Below, one piece after another: positions 8,963-16,924 of a DNA stretch of 64,000 nucleotides. Within the stretch, counting starts at the first letter, position 1. Each line of letters starts with the position of its first letter. The notes under the pieces were generated by a model. It saw nothing but the letters and a program-made list of their open reading frames with translations, ran no database searches and was not told where the DNA came from. The stretch is from Erythrobacteraceae bacterium. Its GTDB lineage: Bacteria > Pseudomonadota > Alphaproteobacteria > Sphingomonadales > Sphingomonadaceae. Made by a program: the position numbers and the translations under genes. Location: the NCBI GenBank assembly GCA_947479055.1, contig CANJYE010000004.1, forward strand, positions 1 through 64,000, written 5' to 3'.

Positions 8963-9604
8963 GTGAGCTGCGGCGGGGGCGACAATCCGGTGGGCGCACA
9001 GCGAGGTCGACCGACCAGCCTTCAGGCGGCGGAAATGGAAGACCGCCTGCTCGATGCCACCTGGGCCTTGCTGGCGGAGACCGGGCCAGAGCAGCTCTCG
9101 ATCGAGAAACTGGCGGCACGGGCAAGGGCCAGCAAGAAGACCATCTACGCACGCTTTGCCAACAAGCGCGACCTCCTGGAACATCTGCTGGCGCAGCGAT
9201 TGGAGCTGTTCCTGGCCGACATGGCCGACCCGGTTCCGCTTGAGGGCGAATTGGCGCAGGCGGCATTCGCGGCGCTGGCGCGCGGCCATCTCGCCGCGCT
9301 GGTGATGGGCCAGGGGCGATTGCTGGAACGGCTGGTCGACTGGCTCGATGCCACCGGAGGCGATGACGGCGGCAGCGTCAAGGCCCGTTCCTATGCGCGG
9401 GTGCTGGCTTTTCTCGAATGGCAGATTCCCGATACCGCGCGCCGGGTCGGGCTGGATATCCCCGATCCCGGGGCCTTCGCGCTCTACTGGCTCGATGGCA
9501 TCGTCGGCCATTCGCGCACCACGCTCGATTGCTCCGAGCAGGCGATCGAGCATTGGGCGCGCGGCTATACCGCGCTCTATCTCAATGCGATTGCGGCCAG
9601 CTGA
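8963..9604 (+). CDS. TetR/AcrR family transcriptional regulator
   Basis: A 213-residue TetR-family regulator. The N-terminal helix-turn-helix (about residues 25-70) contains LSIEKLAARARASKKTIYAR and then FANKRDLLEHLL, the normal TetR pattern. The C-terminal ligand domain is variable. GTG 8963 is chosen because AAGGGG lies about 7 bases upstream. It is divergent from the efflux operon, with a palindromic operator between them, so it most likely represses that operon. Its 3' end overlaps the convergent PRPP-synthetase-like gene by 28 bases. Confidence 0.9.
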   Translation: MSCGGGDNPVGAQRGRPTSLQAAEMEDRLLDATWALLAETGPEQLSIEKLAARARASKKTIYARFANKRDLLEHLLAQRLELFLADMADPVPLEGELAQAAFAALARGHLAALVMGQGRLLERLVDWLDATGGDDGGSVKARSYARVLAFLEWQIPDTARRVGLDIPDPGAFALYWLDGIVGHSRTTLDCSEQAIEHWARGYTALYLNAIAAS

Positions 9605-10467
9605 GGTTCAAGCGCTGCGGCGAGCAGTTGCGTCAGCGGAAGGCAGCCGAGTGGGCCGGGCACAGAATCCGTCGCACGGATCCGCGAAATTCCGGCGGCG
9701 TGCAAGCGGGCGATGTCTTCCCGGCTGGCGAGGCAATGGGTGGCGACCACCTCGATGCTGCGGGCGCCCGCCTGCTTCAGCAGCTGCGCCGCCGCGACCA
9801 GGGTCATGCCGCTCGATATCACATCGTCGACCAGCACCACGCTGCGCCCTGCTGCGCGTTCGATCCCTTGGATGGTGACAGCAACCTCGCGGTCGCCATT
9901 GCGCTGCTTCTCGCCGATCAGCACCTCAAGCCGGCGAGGGGCGGCGATGGCTTCGACCCATTGGCGTGATTCGCTGTCCGGGCCGACCAGCAGTTCCGCG
10001 TCATTGAGCGCGCTGGCCAGCACCGGTGCCGCCGACAGGCTGATCGCGGGAATATCCGGCACGGCCTGATCCAGCCGCTCGATCCGGTGAAGATGGGGGT
10101 CGACCGTCAGCAGGGCGTCGAAATGGGCCGCGAGTAACTGGCCGATCACCCGCTGGCTGACCGCCTCGCCGGGTCGGAAAGCCATGTCCTGGCGCATATA
10201 GGCAAGGTAGGGCGCAACCAGCAGCACCCGGCGCGCGCCGTTTTCCCGCAGCGCGGCGGCGGCGAGCACCAGCTCGACCAGCTTGGCGTTGGGATCGTCG
10301 AGCGAGCGATAGAGGATCGCGGTGGGCGGCGATGGCGGCACCCGCACCAGGCTCTCGCCATCGGGAAAGCGCCTGAGCTCGACCTCTGCGCAGGGCAAGC
10401 CAAGCGCATCAGCCAGCCGTCCGGCGGCTTGGGCGCATTCGCCGAATGTGACAATCGCCGCGCCCAT
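9577..10467 (-). CDS. ribose-phosphate pyrophosphokinase (PRPP synthetase)-like protein
   Basis: A 296-residue PRPP-synthetase-like protein, shorter than the usual bacterial Prs (about 315). It shows the N-terminal FPDGE motif, the catalytic-loop equivalent APYLAYMRQD, the DPHLHRI segment in place of the DLHADQ of classical Prs, and the PRPP-binding loop VVLVDDVISSGMTL. The DPHxxR form resembles archaeal and class III-like enzymes rather than the housekeeping Prs. Its start overlaps the stop of the upstream phosphorylase gene by one base (TGATG), so the two are probably co-translated. It may regenerate PRPP from phosphorylase products or be an ordinary PRPP synthetase; the sequence alone does not decide. 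Confidence 0.85.
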   Translation of the reverse strand: MGAAIVTFGECAQAAGRLADALGLPCAEVELRRFPDGESLVRVPPSPPTAILYRSLDDPNAKLVELVLAAAALRENGARRVLLVAPYLAYMRQDMAFRPGEAVSQRVIGQLLAAHFDALLTVDPHLHRIERLDQAVPDIPAISLSAAPVLASALNDAELLVGPDSESRQWVEAIAAPRRLEVLIGEKQRNGDREVAVTIQGIERAAGRSVVLVDDVISSGMTLVAAAQLLKQAGARSIEVVATHCLASREDIARLHAAGISRIRATDSVPGPLGCLPLTQLLAAALEPQLAAIALR

Positions 10468-11951
10468 CAGCGCAGCTCGTAGCCCGAATTCTCCGCCGCC
10501 ATCTCGCGGGCGAAGTCGAGGCCGGTCCGGGTTCCGGCATGGATCCGGTAGAGCGGATCACCGGCCCTGAGCTGGCTGCCGATCTTGGCGAACAGGTCGA
10601 TCCCCGCCGTCTTGTCGATTGGTGCACCAGCCATGCGGGCAATCCGGGCGATCAGGTGGCAATCGATCGCCGTTACCCGGCCGGCGCTGCGCGCGCGGAC
10701 CTCGAACTGGTGGTGGCCCGGCTCAAGCTTGAGCGTCTGGCGGCCCTGCGCATCGATCAGCCGCTCCATCGCCGCCAGCGCGGCGCCGGACGCCAGCATT
10801 TCCAGCGCGCGGGCATAGCCCTTGCCGCCTTCCAGCGAAGGATCGAAATCGAGCACACGCCCGGCCAGCAGCAGCGCGCGGTCGCGCAGGTCCTCGGGCG
10901 CCTCTTCGTCATTGTTCAGCACTGCCATCACGTCGCGCGCTTCCAGCACTGGGCCGATGCCCCGGCCAATCGGCTCCGAACCGTCGGTAATGACGATGTC
11001 GGTGACGATGCCGATATGCCTGGCGACATATTCGAACAGCTTGCGCAGCCTGACCGCTTCTGCCTGCGAGCGGACCTTGGCGGTCGGGCCAACCGGGATG
11101 TCGATGACGAGGTGAGTCGATCCCGCCGCCGCCTTCTTCGACATGATCGAGGCGACCATTTGCTCGAACGTATCGATCCGCAAGGGCCGCTCGACCGAGA
11201 TCAGCACGTCGTCTGCGGGTGAGAGGTTGACCCGCCCGCCCCAGGCCAGCACCGCCTTTTCGGTCGCGACGATTTCGGACATCCGTTCGGCTGTCAGGTC
11301 GACATTGGCCAGCACCTCCATGGTGTCGGCCGTGCCCGAAGGCGACGTGATCGCCCGCGACGATGTTTTCGGGATCATCAGGCCATGCGCGGCGACGATC
11401 GGCACCACGATCATCGAGGTGCGATTGCCGGGAATGCCGCCGATGCAATGCTTGTCCACCACAAGCGGCGCGTCCCAGTGCAGCCGGTTGCCGACATCGA
11501 TCATCGCCCGGGTCATCGCCAGCGTTTCTTGCGTGCTCATGAAGCTGGCGCAGGCGACCAGGAAGGCGCCGATCTCCATCGGCGAATAGCGATGCCCGGA
11601 AATGTCGCGGATAATCGCGTTCAGCTCACTTTCGCTCAGCGTATCGCCATCGATCTTGCGGCGGACATATTCGAGACTGGCCGGAGGCAGGGCCTGGGCG
11701 AATTCCACTTCCTCGCCTTCGGGCAGGCCCATCCGCCGGAAGGCCTGCTCGCCCAGCCCGATCTCGTCCGGCTCCAGAAGCGCGGGGTCATCGACCAGCG
11801 CCAGCGTGGCGAGGATTTCGCCGCAACTGCCGGTGATGCGGATCTTGCGCAGGGCCTGGAACTGCTCGGGCGAATAGCCACCGGCATGGCGCAGCAGGAA
11901 CGCCGTGTTCTCCGGATGGGTATCGATCGGGATGCGCCGGATCTTCGGCAT
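10467..11951 (-). CDS. thymidine/AMP-phosphorylase family protein (long, AMPpase-like form)
   Basis: A 494-residue nucleoside/nucleotide phosphorylase. After about 85 N-terminal residues absent from short DeoA enzymes come the helical domain, the phosphate-site segment KHCIGGIPGNRTSM (about 167-180), PKTSSRAITSPSGTAD, and the C-terminal domain. The KHxxGGxPGN and SSRAITSPxGTAD forms are those of archaeal AMP phosphorylase, not of E. coli DeoA (KHSTGGVGD, SGRGLGHTGGT). The likely reaction is NMP plus phosphate giving base plus ribose-1,5-bisphosphate, though annotation pipelines call it thymidine phosphorylase. Its partner is the overlapping PRPP-synthetase-like gene. No RuBisCO or R15P isomerase gene is present in the window. 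Confidence 0.87.
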   Translation of the reverse strand: MPKIRRIPIDTHPENTAFLLRHAGGYSPEQFQALRKIRITGSCGEILATLALVDDPALLEPDEIGLGEQAFRRMGLPEGEEVEFAQALPPASLEYVRRKIDGDTLSESELNAIIRDISGHRYSPMEIGAFLVACASFMSTQETLAMTRAMIDVGNRLHWDAPLVVDKHCIGGIPGNRTSMIVVPIVAAHGLMIPKTSSRAITSPSGTADTMEVLANVDLTAERMSEIVATEKAVLAWGGRVNLSPADDVLISVERPLRIDTFEQMVASIMSKKAAAGSTHLVIDIPVGPTAKVRSQAEAVRLRKLFEYVARHIGIVTDIVITDGSEPIGRGIGPVLEARDVMAVLNNDEEAPEDLRDRALLLAGRVLDFDPSLEGGKGYARALEMLASGAALAAMERLIDAQGRQTLKLEPGHHQFEVRARSAGRVTAIDCHLIARIARMAGAPIDKTAGIDLFAKIGSQLRAGDPLYRIHAGTRTGLDFAREMAAENSGYELR

Positions 11952-12185: not shown

Positions 12186-12959
12186 ATGTTCAAGGCAATG
12201 GTGCTGCTCAAGCGCAAGCCCGGTCTGACGCTGCAGCAATTCATCGACCATTATGAGAACAATCATGCCCCGCTGGGCGTGAAGTACCAGAAGAAGATGG
12301 TCCGCTACATCCGCCACTATCTCCACCCCTCGCCCTATCCGCTCGACGGGACGGTGGTCGAAGCCGAATATGACGTGCTGACCGAGCTGTGGTTCGAGGA
12401 CAAGCAGGCTTATGACGAAGGCATGGCGCTGATGATGGCGCCCGAAGCCAATGCCGTGCTGAGCGAGGACGAGGTGCGCTTCCTTGACCTGACGAAGAGC
12501 CGGCTGGCCTATATCGAGGAACATGAATCGGAAATCCCCGGCGGCGGGCCGGGGCCGCGCGACAACACGCATGATCTGCGCAGCATTGTCCTGCTCAAGC
12601 GCAGGCCGGACCTGGCGATCGAACAGTTCATCGATCATTACGAGAATTCTCATGCCCACCTTGGCGTCAAATATGCCGAGGTGATGGCCCGTTACCGCCG
12701 CCTGTTCCTGCGTCCTGCCCCCTATCCGCTCGACGGCACGGTGGTGGAGCCCGAATATGACGTGGCGACCGAAGTGTCCTTCGCCAGCAAGGCGGATCAG
12801 CAGCGGGCCACCGCCAACATGATGGTGCCGGAAATCAACGCCATCATCGAAGCAGACGAAGCGACTTTCATCCACAAGCCGACCCGGCGCTTCATGGGGG
12901 TCGAAACCCATGAATCCCTGCTGCCCTGGGTCGAACCGGGCCGGTTCAAGGGCTGGTGA
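12186..12959 (+). CDS. tandem EthD-domain protein
   Basis: A 257-residue protein made of two homologous EthD/dimeric alpha-beta-barrel units. The first starts MFKAMVLLKRKPGLTLQQF and the second (from about residue 131) repeats it as DLRSIVLLKRRPDLAIEQF. Both carry FIDHYEN.HA.LGVKY and YPLDGTVVE.EYD. EthD domains occur in small ferredoxin-like proteins linked to degradative pathways, often as dimers. Here duplication fuses the two halves of a dimer. A GGGGG-containing ribosome site lies 8-12 bases before the ATG. The stop overlaps the GTG of the quinoprotein dehydrogenase. The biochemical role is not known. Confidence 0.85.
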   Translation: MFKAMVLLKRKPGLTLQQFIDHYENNHAPLGVKYQKKMVRYIRHYLHPSPYPLDGTVVEAEYDVLTELWFEDKQAYDEGMALMMAPEANAVLSEDEVRFLDLTKSRLAYIEEHESEIPGGGPGPRDNTHDLRSIVLLKRRPDLAIEQFIDHYENSHAHLGVKYAEVMARYRRLFLRPAPYPLDGTVVEPEYDVATEVSFASKADQQRATANMMVPEINAIIEADEATFIHKPTRRFMGVETHESLLPWVEPGRFKGW

Positions 12960-15325
12960 GCGAGCAGGACCGGACCATGATCGAACGATCCTATCGCGGC
13001 TGGCCCTGGCGGGTCTTTGCCATCCTGCTGGGGCTTATCGGCCTCTATCTCTTCGGGATGGGCGGCCATCTCGTGCTGGTCGGCGGATCGCCCTATTATG
13101 TTCTGGCCGGGATGATGACCATCGCGGCGGGCGTGCTGGTCGGGCTGGGCAACGGGCGCGGCGGCCTGATCTACGCGCTGATGCTGGCCGCAACCGTGCC
13201 CTGGGCGCTGTGGGAAGTGGGGCTCGATCCATGGCCGCTGGTCGCCCGGCTGGTCGCGCCTACCGTGCTGGGCCTGCCGCTGCTCGGCCATGCGCTGTGG
13301 CGCCGGGGAGGGGGCAGACTGGTCGGCGTCGCGGCGGTGATGCTGGTGGCGGCGGTGACCGGCACGATCATGTCGGTGTCCGAATTCCGCCCCGGTTCGC
13401 CCGAGCCGGGTTTCGTGCCGCCCGCGCAGGCGGCCCTGGCCGATGGCGACTGGACTTCGTTCGGGCGGACCAATGATGGCCGCCGCTTTGCGCCCTTCAC
13501 CCAGATCAACCAGGCCAATGTCGGCCAGCTCAAGCCTGTCTGGAGCTATCGCGCCGGCCACAAGTTCGGCGAGAATACCCCGCTCAAGGTCGGTGACAGC
13601 CTTTATCTGTGCACCGGCGACAATGTCGTGATCGCGCTCGATGCGGAAACCGGGGCGGAGAAGTGGACATACGACCCCAAGATCGCGCCCAACGCCTATG
13701 GCCGCTGGTGCAGGGCGGTGGCCTATCATGGCCCGACTGCGGGCGCAGCGGTTGCCAGCGATGGCGGGGAATGCGTTGAGAGCATCTATGTTTCCACCCG
13801 CGATGCTCGGCTGATCGCGCTCGATGCCGCCACCGGGCGGACCTGCTCGGGCTTCGGCCGGGGCGGCACGGTCGATCTCAAGCAGGACATGGGCGGTGAC
13901 GCGGAAGGCTATCTCTATTCCAGCTCGCCGGCGCTGGTGATCGGCGATCTCGTGGTGGTGGCCAATTGCGTTTACGACGGGCAGTCGGTGAACGAGCCTT
14001 CGGGCGTGGTCCGCGCCTTCAACGCGAAGACCGGCCAGTTCGTCTGGGCCTTCGATGCCGGGCGTCCCGGTGTGACCACCCAGCCTGCGCCGGGCGAACA
14101 CTTCACCCGCGGCACGCCCAATGTGTGGAGCGTGATGAGCGCGGACGAGAAGCTCGGGCTTATCTTCCTGCCCACCGGCAATGCGACGCCCGATTATTTC
14201 GGCGGCCATCGCAAGCCGATCCTCGACAAATATGCCGCCTCCACCGTCGCGCTGGATGCGCGGACCGGTCAGGTGCGATGGGCGTTCCAGACAACGCATC
14301 ACGATATCTGGGATTATGACGTCCCGTCCCAGCCGGTGCTGTTCGATTTCCCGACGCCTGCGGGCCGGGTGCCGGCCGTGTTGCAACCAACCAAGCGCGG
14401 CGAATTGTTCGTGCTCGACCGGCGCACCGGCAAGCCGATCACAAGGGTGGTGGAGAAGCGGACCCCGCAAGGCGCGGCGAAAGGCGATTACGTCACGCGG
14501 ACCCAGCCGTTTTCGGTCGGCATGCCATCGCTGATGGACCCCGACCTGACCGAAGCGGACATGTGGGGAATGACCCCGCTTGACCAGTTGTGGTGCCGGG
14601 TGAAGTTCCGCAAGGCCCGCTATGAAGGGACGATGACCCCGATCGGGGTGCATAAGCCGAGCCTTCGCTATCCTGGCTCCTCCGGCATCTACAACTGGGG
14701 CAGCATCTCGATCGACGAGGACACCGGCGTAATGGTGGCGGCAACGCTGCACCTGGCCAATTACGACCAGCTGATCCCGCGCGGCACCACTGAGGCGCGC
14801 GCATTCGACCAGCGCGGCGCGAACGGCCATGCCGAGATCGGCCCCGGCGCGGGTGGCCCGCAACGCGGCACGCCCTATGCGGTCAGCAATCCGCCGTTCT
14901 TCTCGCCACTGGCGGTGCCTTGCACCAAACCGCCGTTTGGGCGGGTCTCGGCGATCGATCTCAACACCCGCAAGCTGTTGTGGAGCCAGCCGGTGGGCAC
15001 CACCCGTAAAAGCGGGCCGTTCGGCCTGCAACTTGGGCTGGAACTGCCGATGGGCGTGCCGGTCAGCGGCGGGATGCTGGTGACGCGCGGGGGCGTGAGT
15101 TTCTACGGCGCCTCGCAGGACGGCTATCTGCGCGCCTACGCGACGCGCAGTGGCACTCCGCTGTGGCGGACGAAGATGCCGGCCGGGACGGAATCGACAC
15201 CGATGAGCTATGTCACGCCGAAAAGTGGGCGGCAGATGGTGGTGATCACGGTGGGCGGTGCGGTCGGTTCTGCTGAATCCGCCGATTATGTCATCGCCTT
15301 TGCCCTGCCCGACAAGCGGAAGTAG
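12956..15325 (+). CDS. membrane-bound PQQ-dependent dehydrogenase (glucose/quinate/shikimate family)
   Basis: A 789-residue quinoprotein close in length to E. coli Gcd (796). Four or five N-terminal membrane helices (about residues 15-140) are followed by a periplasmic eight-bladed PQQ propeller. The first blade has the family signature DWTSFGRTNDGRRFAPFTQI. The catalytic Asp region DYDVP lies near residue 452, and W-motif repeats such as IALDAETGAEKW are present. It oxidises a sugar or polyol in the periplasm and passes electrons to ubiquinone. GTG 12956 overlaps the EthD stop (GTGA). No PQQ biosynthesis genes are in the window. Substrate identity is not determined; glucose is the default for the family. 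Confidence 0.93.
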   Translation: MSEQDRTMIERSYRGWPWRVFAILLGLIGLYLFGMGGHLVLVGGSPYYVLAGMMTIAAGVLVGLGNGRGGLIYALMLAATVPWALWEVGLDPWPLVARLVAPTVLGLPLLGHALWRRGGGRLVGVAAVMLVAAVTGTIMSVSEFRPGSPEPGFVPPAQAALADGDWTSFGRTNDGRRFAPFTQINQANVGQLKPVWSYRAGHKFGENTPLKVGDSLYLCTGDNVVIALDAETGAEKWTYDPKIAPNAYGRWCRAVAYHGPTAGAAVASDGGECVESIYVSTRDARLIALDAATGRTCSGFGRGGTVDLKQDMGGDAEGYLYSSSPALVIGDLVVVANCVYDGQSVNEPSGVVRAFNAKTGQFVWAFDAGRPGVTTQPAPGEHFTRGTPNVWSVMSADEKLGLIFLPTGNATPDYFGGHRKPILDKYAASTVALDARTGQVRWAFQTTHHDIWDYDVPSQPVLFDFPTPAGRVPAVLQPTKRGELFVLDRRTGKPITRVVEKRTPQGAAKGDYVTRTQPFSVGMPSLMDPDLTEADMWGMTPLDQLWCRVKFRKARYEGTMTPIGVHKPSLRYPGSSGIYNWGSISIDEDTGVMVAATLHLANYDQLIPRGTTEARAFDQRGANGHAEIGPGAGGPQRGTPYAVSNPPFFSPLAVPCTKPPFGRVSAIDLNTRKLLWSQPVGTTRKSGPFGLQLGLELPMGVPVSGGMLVTRGGVSFYGASQDGYLRAYATRSGTPLWRTKMPAGTESTPMSYVTPKSGRQMVVITVGGAVGSAESADYVIAFALPDKRK

Positions 15326-15336
15326 GAGAAGCACCC

Positions 15337-15846
15337 GTGCTGCTCGGTGTCCATCACGTCGCCGTCGCCACTGCCGATCTTGATCGGCTGCGCGGCTTTT
15401 ACTGCACCCATCTGGGGATGGAGCAAATCAGTGAGCGCGAGTGGGCAGACCGCCCGCAGGTCGATGCGATCGTCGGCCTGCCCGGCTCCGCTGCGCGGGT
15501 CTGCATGCTGAAGGCGGGCAATCTGGCGCTGGAAATCTTCCAGTATCTCCAGCCGAAGAGCGTGGCCGGAGACGCCAATCGCCCGGTCCACATCCCCGGC
15601 TTCACCCATTTCGGCTTCGTGGTGGACGATGTGGACGCGGAATATGCCCGGCTGTGCGCGGCAGGCGTGCGCTTCCACGGCGCGCCGTCCGACAAGGCGA
15701 TCAGCCCGGAAGAAGTGCCGCTGCGCGCAGTCTATGGCCGCGATCCCGATGGCAATGTGTTCGAACTGATGGAGTTCGTCGGCGAAACCCCGCTCGATTA
15801 TAAGCCCGGCAATGCGCAATGGCGCGGGGCGAAGGCGGCGGGGTGA
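15337..15846 (+). CDS. VOC-family (glyoxalase/dioxygenase fold) protein
   Basis: A 169-residue vicinal-oxygen-chelate protein. The beginning, GVHHVAVATADLDRLRGFY, carries the first metal-type His, a second His is in GFTHFGFVVDDVD, and the final Glu is in DPDGNVFELMEF, so a metal site is likely intact. The GTG start has AGGAG about 8 bases upstream and follows the dehydrogenase stop after 11 bases, so all three genes are probably one operon. VOC proteins include dioxygenases, lyases and epimerases; the reaction here cannot be named. Confidence 0.87.
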   Translation: MLLGVHHVAVATADLDRLRGFYCTHLGMEQISEREWADRPQVDAIVGLPGSAARVCMLKAGNLALEIFQYLQPKSVAGDANRPVHIPGFTHFGFVVDDVDAEYARLCAAGVRFHGAPSDKAISPEEVPLRAVYGRDPDGNVFELMEFVGETPLDYKPGNAQWRGAKAAG

Positions 15847-15916
15847 GGGGGCAATTGGGTTTGCCTTCACCGGCTCTTCGTCTAGACGTGCCAGCGCCAT
15901 TCAGAGCGGGCTGAGC

Positions 15917-16924
15917 ATGAAAGAAATCTATCAGTTTTCCGGAACCGACTTCGGCGACCTGCTCGGGACATTCGGCGCGTTGGTTCGCCGGGAGTTCTTT
16001 GACGGCGAATTGCGTGCGAACGTGCGCGAGCAATTCAGTATGACTGTCGAAAAGGCGATATCCCATCCCATCACGCTCATTCGGGTCGTTTCGAACTCTA
16101 CGGTCTCTTACCGCAGAGGCTGGGATCATATCCGTTCAAACAGGAGCGGCGTTCGCGTTATACGATTTGTGAGGCGGGGACATGTCGAGTTCGTGCGCTC
16201 ATCGGGCAACATTACCATAAATTCTGGAGAGTGCACGATCCTCGACTCAAGCATTCCCTTCCATGTCAAATCTGTGACAGATGGTGAGTTATTTGAGATG
16301 GTTCTTGCCATAGTTCCCGCCCATCTTTTTATACGATACTTACCATTCGTCTCAAATTTTGAAGACTTGGTCGTTTTTAATTATGAGGATCACAAGGTAT
16401 TTGAAAAAATACTAAACTATCTTTGTGATCTCGATGATAATATAAGCGCCAAGATGGCGGGCTTGCTGTCGGACGCATTTTTGGAGAGTTTTTCAGAGGT
16501 TATAAAAGATATAAATCCTCATATTTTATACAGTGACAGGCAGTTGATTAGAGAATTATCCTATATTAGAGATAAAATATCTGATAATTTACAATACTCC
16601 TCTCTAGACGGAAATAAAATGGCTTCATTGTGCGGAATTTCTATGAGAAAAATATACTATATATTGGAAAGTGAAGGAACAACATTGTCTAAGGAAATTT
16701 GGAGAATGAGGCTGGAGCGGGCGCGTGATTTAATTACCTCAATAGATATGGCGCATATCGATATTCGTGAAATCGCCTTTAAAGTCGGCTTCAAGGATGC
16801 ATCGCACTTCAGTCGTTCATTTAAAGAAGCCTTTGGGAAATCGCCTAAGCAGTTCCGCAAAGACGCCATCGCCGTTGGCCATATTGACACGATTCAACCA
16901 ACTCTGGACATGGCGAGGCTGTAA
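15917..16924 (+). CDS. AraC-family transcriptional regulator, AT-rich gene
   Basis: A 335-residue regulator with a C-terminal AraC DNA-binding domain (about residues 225-325). The first helix-turn-helix is near KMASLCGISMRKIYYILESE and the second is in DIREIAFKVGFKDASHFSRS, followed by FKEAFGKSPKQFRK. The N-terminal part resembles the ligand domain of AraC-binding-domain-like regulators (RFVRRGHVEFVRSSG). ATG 15917 is preferred over an upstream in-frame start inside the VOC gene. The gene switches abruptly to AT-rich sequence after about 16200 (15 G/C in the 60 bases from 16561) with AT-ending codons, unlike all its neighbours, which suggests foreign origin. It may control the adjacent EthD/dehydrogenase/VOC genes. 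Confidence 0.88.
   Translation: MKEIYQFSGTDFGDLLGTFGALVRREFFDGELRANVREQFSMTVEKAISHPITLIRVVSNSTVSYRRGWDHIRSNRSGVRVIRFVRRGHVEFVRSSGNITINSGECTILDSSIPFHVKSVTDGELFEMVLAIVPAHLFIRYLPFVSNFEDLVVFNYEDHKVFEKILNYLCDLDDNISAKMAGLLSDAFLESFSEVIKDINPHILYSDRQLIRELSYIRDKISDNLQYSSLDGNKMASLCGISMRKIYYILESEGTTLSKEIWRMRLERARDLITSIDMAHIDIREIAFKVGFKDASHFSRSFKEAFGKSPKQFRKDAIAVGHIDTIQPTLDMARL

Follow-up and report, generated by a model that had tools for sequence, protein, structure and literature searches.

A conserved bacterial gene pair of an AMP-phosphorylase-type enzyme and a PRPP-synthetase-like protein, and a possible fate for ribose 1,5-bisphosphate

What would a bacterium do with ribose 1,5-bisphosphate (R15P)? 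The question is raised by a 64,000-nucleotide stretch of an Erythrobacteraceae genome (assembly GCA_947479055.1, contig CANJYE010000004.1, positions 1 to 64,000; the whole of it is called the window), whose closest relatives put the source genome in Sphingomonadales. On its minus strand lie P0001 (10467-11951, 494 residues), which resembles nucleoside 5'-monophosphate (NMP) phosphorylases of the adenosine monophosphate (AMP) type, and P0002 (9577-10467, 296 residues), a phosphoribosyl pyrophosphate (PRPP) synthetase-like protein of the NF005537/PRK07199 subfamily. The reading that we tentatively favor, and that falls only just short of probable, is that the module to which they belong salvages ribose and energy from RNA and nucleotides under limited respiration, P0002 moving the C1 phosphate of R15P.

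P0001 is classed here, by profile and fold, as an archaeal-type NMP/AMP-phosphorylase homologue. It exceeds the cut-offs of the NCBIfam profiles NF003338 (678 bits) and archaeal-type TIGR02645 (597 bits), and reaches at most 197 bits with bacterial DeoA or thymidine phosphorylase models. The nearest solved structure is the AMP phosphorylase of Thermococcus kodakarensis (4ga5, 314 bits); the best pyrimidine-nucleoside phosphorylase scores 132. The match to 4ga5 spans the full length, P0001 has the N-terminal domain absent from DeoA, and its AlphaFold model (predicted local distance difference test, pLDDT, 92) aligns with 4ga5 over the full length with a template modelling (TM) score of 0.88. 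Two stretches, KHCIGGIPGN (residues 167-176; 11424-11453, minus strand), an archaeal-type phosphate-binding loop, and SSRAITSPSGTAD (residues 197-209; 11325-11363, minus strand), which is common to the T. kodakarensis enzyme and not to DeoA or the pyrimidine-nucleoside phosphorylases, align together with R255, S268 and K272 with the phosphate- and base-site motifs of the archaeal enzyme. Across 40 homologues the three base-site residues and most residues of KHCIGGIPGN and SSRAITSP are invariant. An earlier, sequence-only reading of this DNA had seen archaeal AMP-phosphorylase forms here rather than those of DeoA, and rightly so. Since the homology is to a characterized enzyme and the base- and phosphate-site residues are conserved, P0001 likely carries out NMP phosphorolysis. 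Its score with the AMP-phosphorylase equivalog TIGR03327 is 479 bits, 56 short of the cut-off of 535, and it is therefore filed as a member of the archaeal-type subfamily and not as a proven AMP phosphorylase. That shortfall, and the annotation of relatives as 'thymidine phosphorylase family protein', would suit a plain thymidine or uridine phosphorylase whose pairing with P0002 is incidental. We regard this as extremely improbable given the 678 bits on the archaeal-type subfamily versus 197 on thymidine phosphorylase, the archaeal N-domain, the SSRAITSP motif and an obligate co-occurrence with the PRPP-synthetase-like gene.

That co-occurrence was scored, by the NF003338 and NF005537 cut-offs, in 249 evenly drawn genomes of Pseudomonadota. 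Each family is over its cut-off in 30 genomes, and they are the same 30; none of the 219 others has either. The 30 pair genomes belong to 19 genera, 13 families and two classes or more. The Fisher p value of about 2e-39 assumes independent genomes and is indicative only; the spread across families carries more weight. Nearly all copies of the pair are adjacent, the exceptions being one copy whose genes lie about 4 kb apart and one genome in which contig ends split them. Of 16 genomes checked in which no PRPP-synthetase-like gene had been called beside the phosphorylase, 12 still carry one (316-393 bits), NF005537 being over its cut-off in 10 and just under it in two (321 and 317 bits). At the window's junction, which reads ...CGC TGA TG GGC, the P0001 stop (10467-10469) and the P0002 start (10465-10467) form a TGATG on the minus strand (10465-10469) with base 10467 common to both. 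This overlap is not chance, as 48 of the 58 homologous pairs measured among 80 related loci overlap by 4 nucleotides (ATGA), and translational coupling is likely. Thus, the gene positions and one-base overlap given by the sequence-only reading are correct. Its coupling of the two genes in function is well supported, as is the conservation of the module. The condition which that reading set for its own refutation, that the two genes do not co-occur beyond close relatives, clearly fails, as the pair reaches two classes and plasmids of Betaproteobacteria, Chlamydiota and Bacteroidota.

A frequent third gene, not included in the earlier reading, encodes an RNase-like beta-CASP metallo-beta-lactamase (MBL) with Beta-Casp, RMMBL and Lactamase_B domains. 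It is within the operon or nearby in 54 of the 80 related loci, and is present in 18 of the 30 pair genomes versus 28 of the 219 others (p about 5e-8), adjoining the pair in 11. It lies before the phosphorylase gene (TP) in some genomes and after the PRPP-synthetase-like gene (PRS) in others; the association therefore probably formed more than once. In the source genome it is unlinked to the pair, on contig C65. The MBL-TP-PRS cassette is found on plasmids, often conjugative, of Alpha-, Beta- and Gammaproteobacteria, Chlamydiota and Bacteroidota, and the pair is a mobile, widely conserved module. In some clusters it is joined by phosphoketolase: MBL-TP-PRS-phosphoketolase in Legionella fallonii, phosphoketolase-glgP-ATP cone-MBL-TP-PRS-acetate kinase in Criblamydia, and PRS-phosphoketolase family-MBL-TP on an Agrobacterium plasmid. 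Further neighbors across the related loci are universal stress proteins, phosphoenolpyruvate synthase and Ca-type P-ATPases.

Of the 80 loci, 28 carry an FNR/FixK-like box with 9 or 10 of 10 matches in front of the phosphorylase gene, versus 1.2 expected from mononucleotide shuffles. In Bradyrhizobium diazoefficiens the trio bll3117-bll3116-bll3115 is listed as induced in microoxia (PMC6515984) and as a FixK2-activated target with a box at -74 (PMC9104804), in the same regulon table as the phosphoketolase-acetate kinase genes bll2518-bll2517. The parts of these two papers that list the trio report it as differentially expressed and assign it no function. The clustering with phosphoketolase and acetate kinase, and the control by FixK2, point to a role in ribose 5-phosphate (R5P) and energy metabolism at low oxygen.

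There are several further observations on the neighborhoods. The Agrobacterium plasmid gene (L112, 5221-7590) between PRS and MBL is annotated 'xylulose 5-phosphate 3-epimerase'; from its profile matches (XFP 134 bits, XFP_N only 45 bits) it appears to be a divergent phosphoketolase. On the Novosphingobium plasmid pLA3 (L117, 7001-15479), TP-PRS-MBL directly adjoins an F0F1 ATP synthase operon (atpD, epsilon, AtpZ/I, A, C, B, alpha), which is in keeping with an energy role of the module. A protein with an 'ATP cone' domain, which might regulate the module by sensing nucleotides, precedes MBL-TP-PRS on Chlamydiota and Bacteroidota plasmids (L114, 3771-4613; L118, 1972-2817). TP-PRS-MBL lies repeatedly (five loci) within plasmid copper/heavy-metal resistance islands. 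In nine loci, mostly gammaproteobacterial, a DUF1614 membrane protein gene replaces the beta-CASP gene beside TP-PRS, and several of these have a gene for an extracytoplasmic function (ECF) sigma factor upstream. The unlinked beta-CASP gene of the source genome (L086, 1483-3081) has as neighbors a gene resembling low-molecular-weight phosphatases and an open reading frame resembling retropepsin-like aspartic proteases. A supposed 1860-residue PRS fusion in Azospirillum halopraeferens was discarded, since it is no more than one long open frame running across an ordinary TP-PRS-MBL cluster.

The second protein, P0002, scores 343 bits with NF005537/PRK07199 (cut-off 322) and 187 with the archaeal PRPP-synthetase equivalog NF002095 (cut-off 296). 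Its closest relatives are class III archaeal PRPP synthetases (1u9y, 3mbi), to which its model (pLDDT 95) aligns in Foldseek with TM scores of 0.81-0.92. The canonical residues F34, D36 and E38, R92, Q93 and D94, H125, D164, K187, R189, D214, D215 and T222 are retained, and with them equivalents of all the adenine, metal and R5P ligands described for E. coli PRPP synthetase, namely F35, D37, H131, D170, D220, D221 and T228 (PMC9232217). The R5P-binding loop DDVISSGMT (residues 214-222; 9802-9828, minus strand) is likewise retained. Around the metal/phosphate site, compared with seven canonical sequences, the family has signatures of its own, on the minus strand in each case. In HLHR (residues 125-128; 10084-10095), H125 is the canonical metal/ATP-phosphate ligand and L126-H127-R128 is invariant only in the subfamily; the DPHxxR motif of the sequence-only reading is part of this signature, as DPHLHR. 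In GPDSES (residues 162-167; 9967-9984), D164 is the canonical Mg/R5P ligand and E166-S167 stands in place of the canonical GG/GA. In the catalytic loop KQRNGD (residues 187-192; 9892-9909), K187 and R189 are canonical and D192 is subfamily-specific. G162, E166 and D192 are invariant in the family, S167 and W170 nearly so, and divergent plasmid copies, including the one from Chlamydiota, share the HLHR, GPDxES and KxRxGD motifs. To summarize, P0002 appears to be a PRPP-synthetase fold with intact nucleotide, R5P and metal sites and a remodelled phosphate pocket. The E. coli R99 position, a beta-phosphate contact, is not retained in the window-type subgroup; the loss of basic residues after RQD (E. 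coli R99/R100) is confined to that subgroup and was given little weight as evidence of changed chemistry.

Candidate sinks for R15P are few in the 30 pair genomes. R15P isomerase (TIGR00511) is over its cut-off in none of them, the source genome included; matches of 139-180 bits, versus a cut-off of 314, were set aside as probable MtnA-like relatives. RuBisCO is present in 16 of the 30 and absent from the source genome. PhnN is over its cut-off in four; matches of 45-73 bits (cut-off 156) were set aside as probable guanylate-kinase-like relatives, and one at 135 bits is ambiguous. The expectation that the sink here differs from the isomerase and RuBisCO of archaea has thus held up. Besides the phosphorylase, the only candidate for handling R15P that is common to all 30 genomes is the PRS-like gene.

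How would P0002 handle it? The sequence-only reading suggested that R15P could feed PRPP formation. PRPP synthetases use R5P, not R15P, as their sugar substrate, and the known enzyme that takes R15P to PRPP is PhnN. For P0002 itself to convert R15P into PRPP would be an unprecedented PhnN-like activity; the product-side logic and the lack of PhnN in most pair genomes speak for it, but the enzyme would have to phosphorylate a phosphate, and not an alcohol, in an otherwise canonical site. The phosphoketolase/FixK2 context would also be left unexplained. A flow from R15P to PRPP is possible but less well supported, PhnN being over its cut-off in only four genomes, and we judge this route through P0002 very unlikely.

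In another proposal P0002 would be a PRPP synthetase paralogue of ordinary activity that serves base recycling: the phosphorylase would free bases and R15P, PRPP made from R5P would let phosphoribosyltransferases rebuild NMPs, and nucleotide pools would be rebalanced. All residues for catalysis with R5P and ATP are conserved, P0002 is matched best by genuine PRPP synthetases of class III, and a phosphoribosyltransferase gene lies near the pair in six loci. However, the source genome already has a separate canonical housekeeping prs (contig C16), R15P would be left without a sink in most pair genomes, the invariant HLHR/GPDxES/GD residues are unlike those of every canonical synthetase compared, and an obligate pairing with a phosphorylase is unexpected for generic PRPP supply. 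We consider this proposal unlikely, if far from negligible.

A precedent for altered chemistry comes from human PRS1, in which H130 corresponds to H125 of P0002. The H130A enzyme no longer forms AMP and releases ADP at near-wild-type kcat (PMC4363470). A substitution here can thus make the fold break the beta-gamma bond instead of transferring a pyrophosphoryl group. The same precedent can be turned around: P0002 might make R15P from R5P with ADP or ATP, and P0001 might join R15P to free bases, giving a cheap salvage of bases into NMPs that does not depend on PRPP. This anabolic direction is the same chemistry reversed, would be thermodynamically favored, draws on the ADP release possible in this fold and would be useful at low energy charge. 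The beta-CASP RNase and the clustering with phosphoketolase and acetate kinase point instead to breakdown, and we find synthesis distinctly unlikely.

We return to the salvage of ribose and energy. The proposal is a core operon of two within a three-component module of beta-CASP RNase, NMP phosphorylase and PRS-like enzyme. The beta-CASP protein or other RNases would yield 5'-NMPs from RNA. P0001, going by its homology, would convert NMP and phosphate to base and R15P. P0002 would then catalyze R15P + ADP or AMP -> R5P + ATP or ADP, a single-phosphate counterpart of the PRPP-synthetase reaction in reverse. R5P would go on into the pentose phosphate pathway and, in genomes that have them, to phosphoketolase and acetate kinase. 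Of these steps, the phosphotransfer by P0002 is the new one and the one of which we are least sure; we infer it because alternative sinks are missing, the site is remodelled, H130A provides a precedent and phosphoketolase is linked to the module. In its boldest form, which we hold to be somewhat less likely than not, the proposal is of a bacterial pentose-bisphosphate shunt, widespread and often plasmid-borne, in which a PRPP synthetase has been neofunctionalized into an R15P:ADP (or AMP) phosphotransferase and RNA is an energy store for emergencies.

A number of points weigh against this salvage reading. Judged by phosphate-transfer potentials, passing a sugar C1 phosphate on to ADP is unfavorable under standard conditions and would require that energy charge be low and R5P be drained away. 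P0002 has all that the usual synthesis of PRPP requires, the equivalent of H130 is unmutated in its family, and the plasmid subgroup keeps RQDRR or RQDKR. The sugar product of H130A was not identified (PMC4363470), and the literature searched holds no biochemistry for the P0002 subfamily. Four of the 16 phosphorylase genomes checked (two Ferrovibrio, Desertibaculum and one metagenome-assembled Rhodospirillales genome) lack a PRS-like gene. Upstream of the window copy there is no FNR/FixK box, the best match being 7/10, and a genome search found no phosphoketolase in the source genome. Phosphoketolase as a requirement of the module was also tried and dropped: genome-wide, it is present in 7 of the 30 pair genomes versus 23 of the 219 others (p 0.07), a weak association.

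The window's own operon appears to consist of P0001 and P0002 and no further gene. Its 5' neighbor is a divergent EthD-domain gene (12186, plus strand), and its 3' neighbor a convergent TetR gene (8963-9604, plus strand) whose 3' end overlaps that of P0002 by 28 bases. Between 4619 and 9604, a minus-strand EmrA/EmrB-like efflux operon that also encodes an outer-membrane factor of the NodT type lies beside this divergent TetR regulator. On the other side, 12186-16924 (plus strand) holds in a row a tandem-EthD protein, a membrane-bound pyrroloquinoline quinone-dependent dehydrogenase, a vicinal oxygen chelate (VOC)/glyoxalase protein and an AraC-type regulator, possibly a catabolic cluster.

If the salvage reading is true, oxygen-limited bacteria would turn RNA into bases, ribose 5-phosphate and high-energy phosphate, and there would be a concrete mechanism for drawing carbon and energy from RNA under microoxia, with the regulation of the Bradyrhizobium operon already mapped. 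Many ordinary bacteria would share in the archaeal NMP shunt, with another and previously uncharacterized sink, the PRK07199 branch of PRPP synthetases would gain a function, and many 'thymidine phosphorylase' labels would be corrected. For the bacterial pair, the literature searched, with most subscription journals outside the search, gave only expression tables. The part available of a 2026 preprint surveying PRPP synthetases across domains (PMC13252144) describes many bacterial classes and names none as this pair; it may cover the P0002 clade as one of its numbered classes, with no mention of the operon.

Among known systems, B. diazoefficiens bll3117-bll3116-bll3115 is the same gene trio under FixK2 control, whereas the window copy has neither a FixK-like box nor a linked RNase gene. 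PhnN, the R15P phosphokinase of the E. coli phosphonate pathway, is likewise a bacterial user of R15P, but belongs to an unrelated family and is found in few pair genomes. The class III PRPP synthetases of M. jannaschii (1u9y) and T. volcanium (3mbi) are like P0002 in fold and in the mapped catalytic and binding residues; P0002 differs in HLHR, GPDxES, D192 and W170, in its tie to a phosphorylase and in coexisting with a housekeeping prs. The archaeal NMP shunt, or pentose bisphosphate pathway, of Thermococcus (NMP phosphorylase, R15P isomerase and RuBisCO) has a homologous first enzyme and the same predicted R15P intermediate (PMC9700705). In the bacterial module, which lacks an isomerase over cut-off in the 30 genomes and a RuBisCO in the source genome, the PRS-like gene occupies the partner position.

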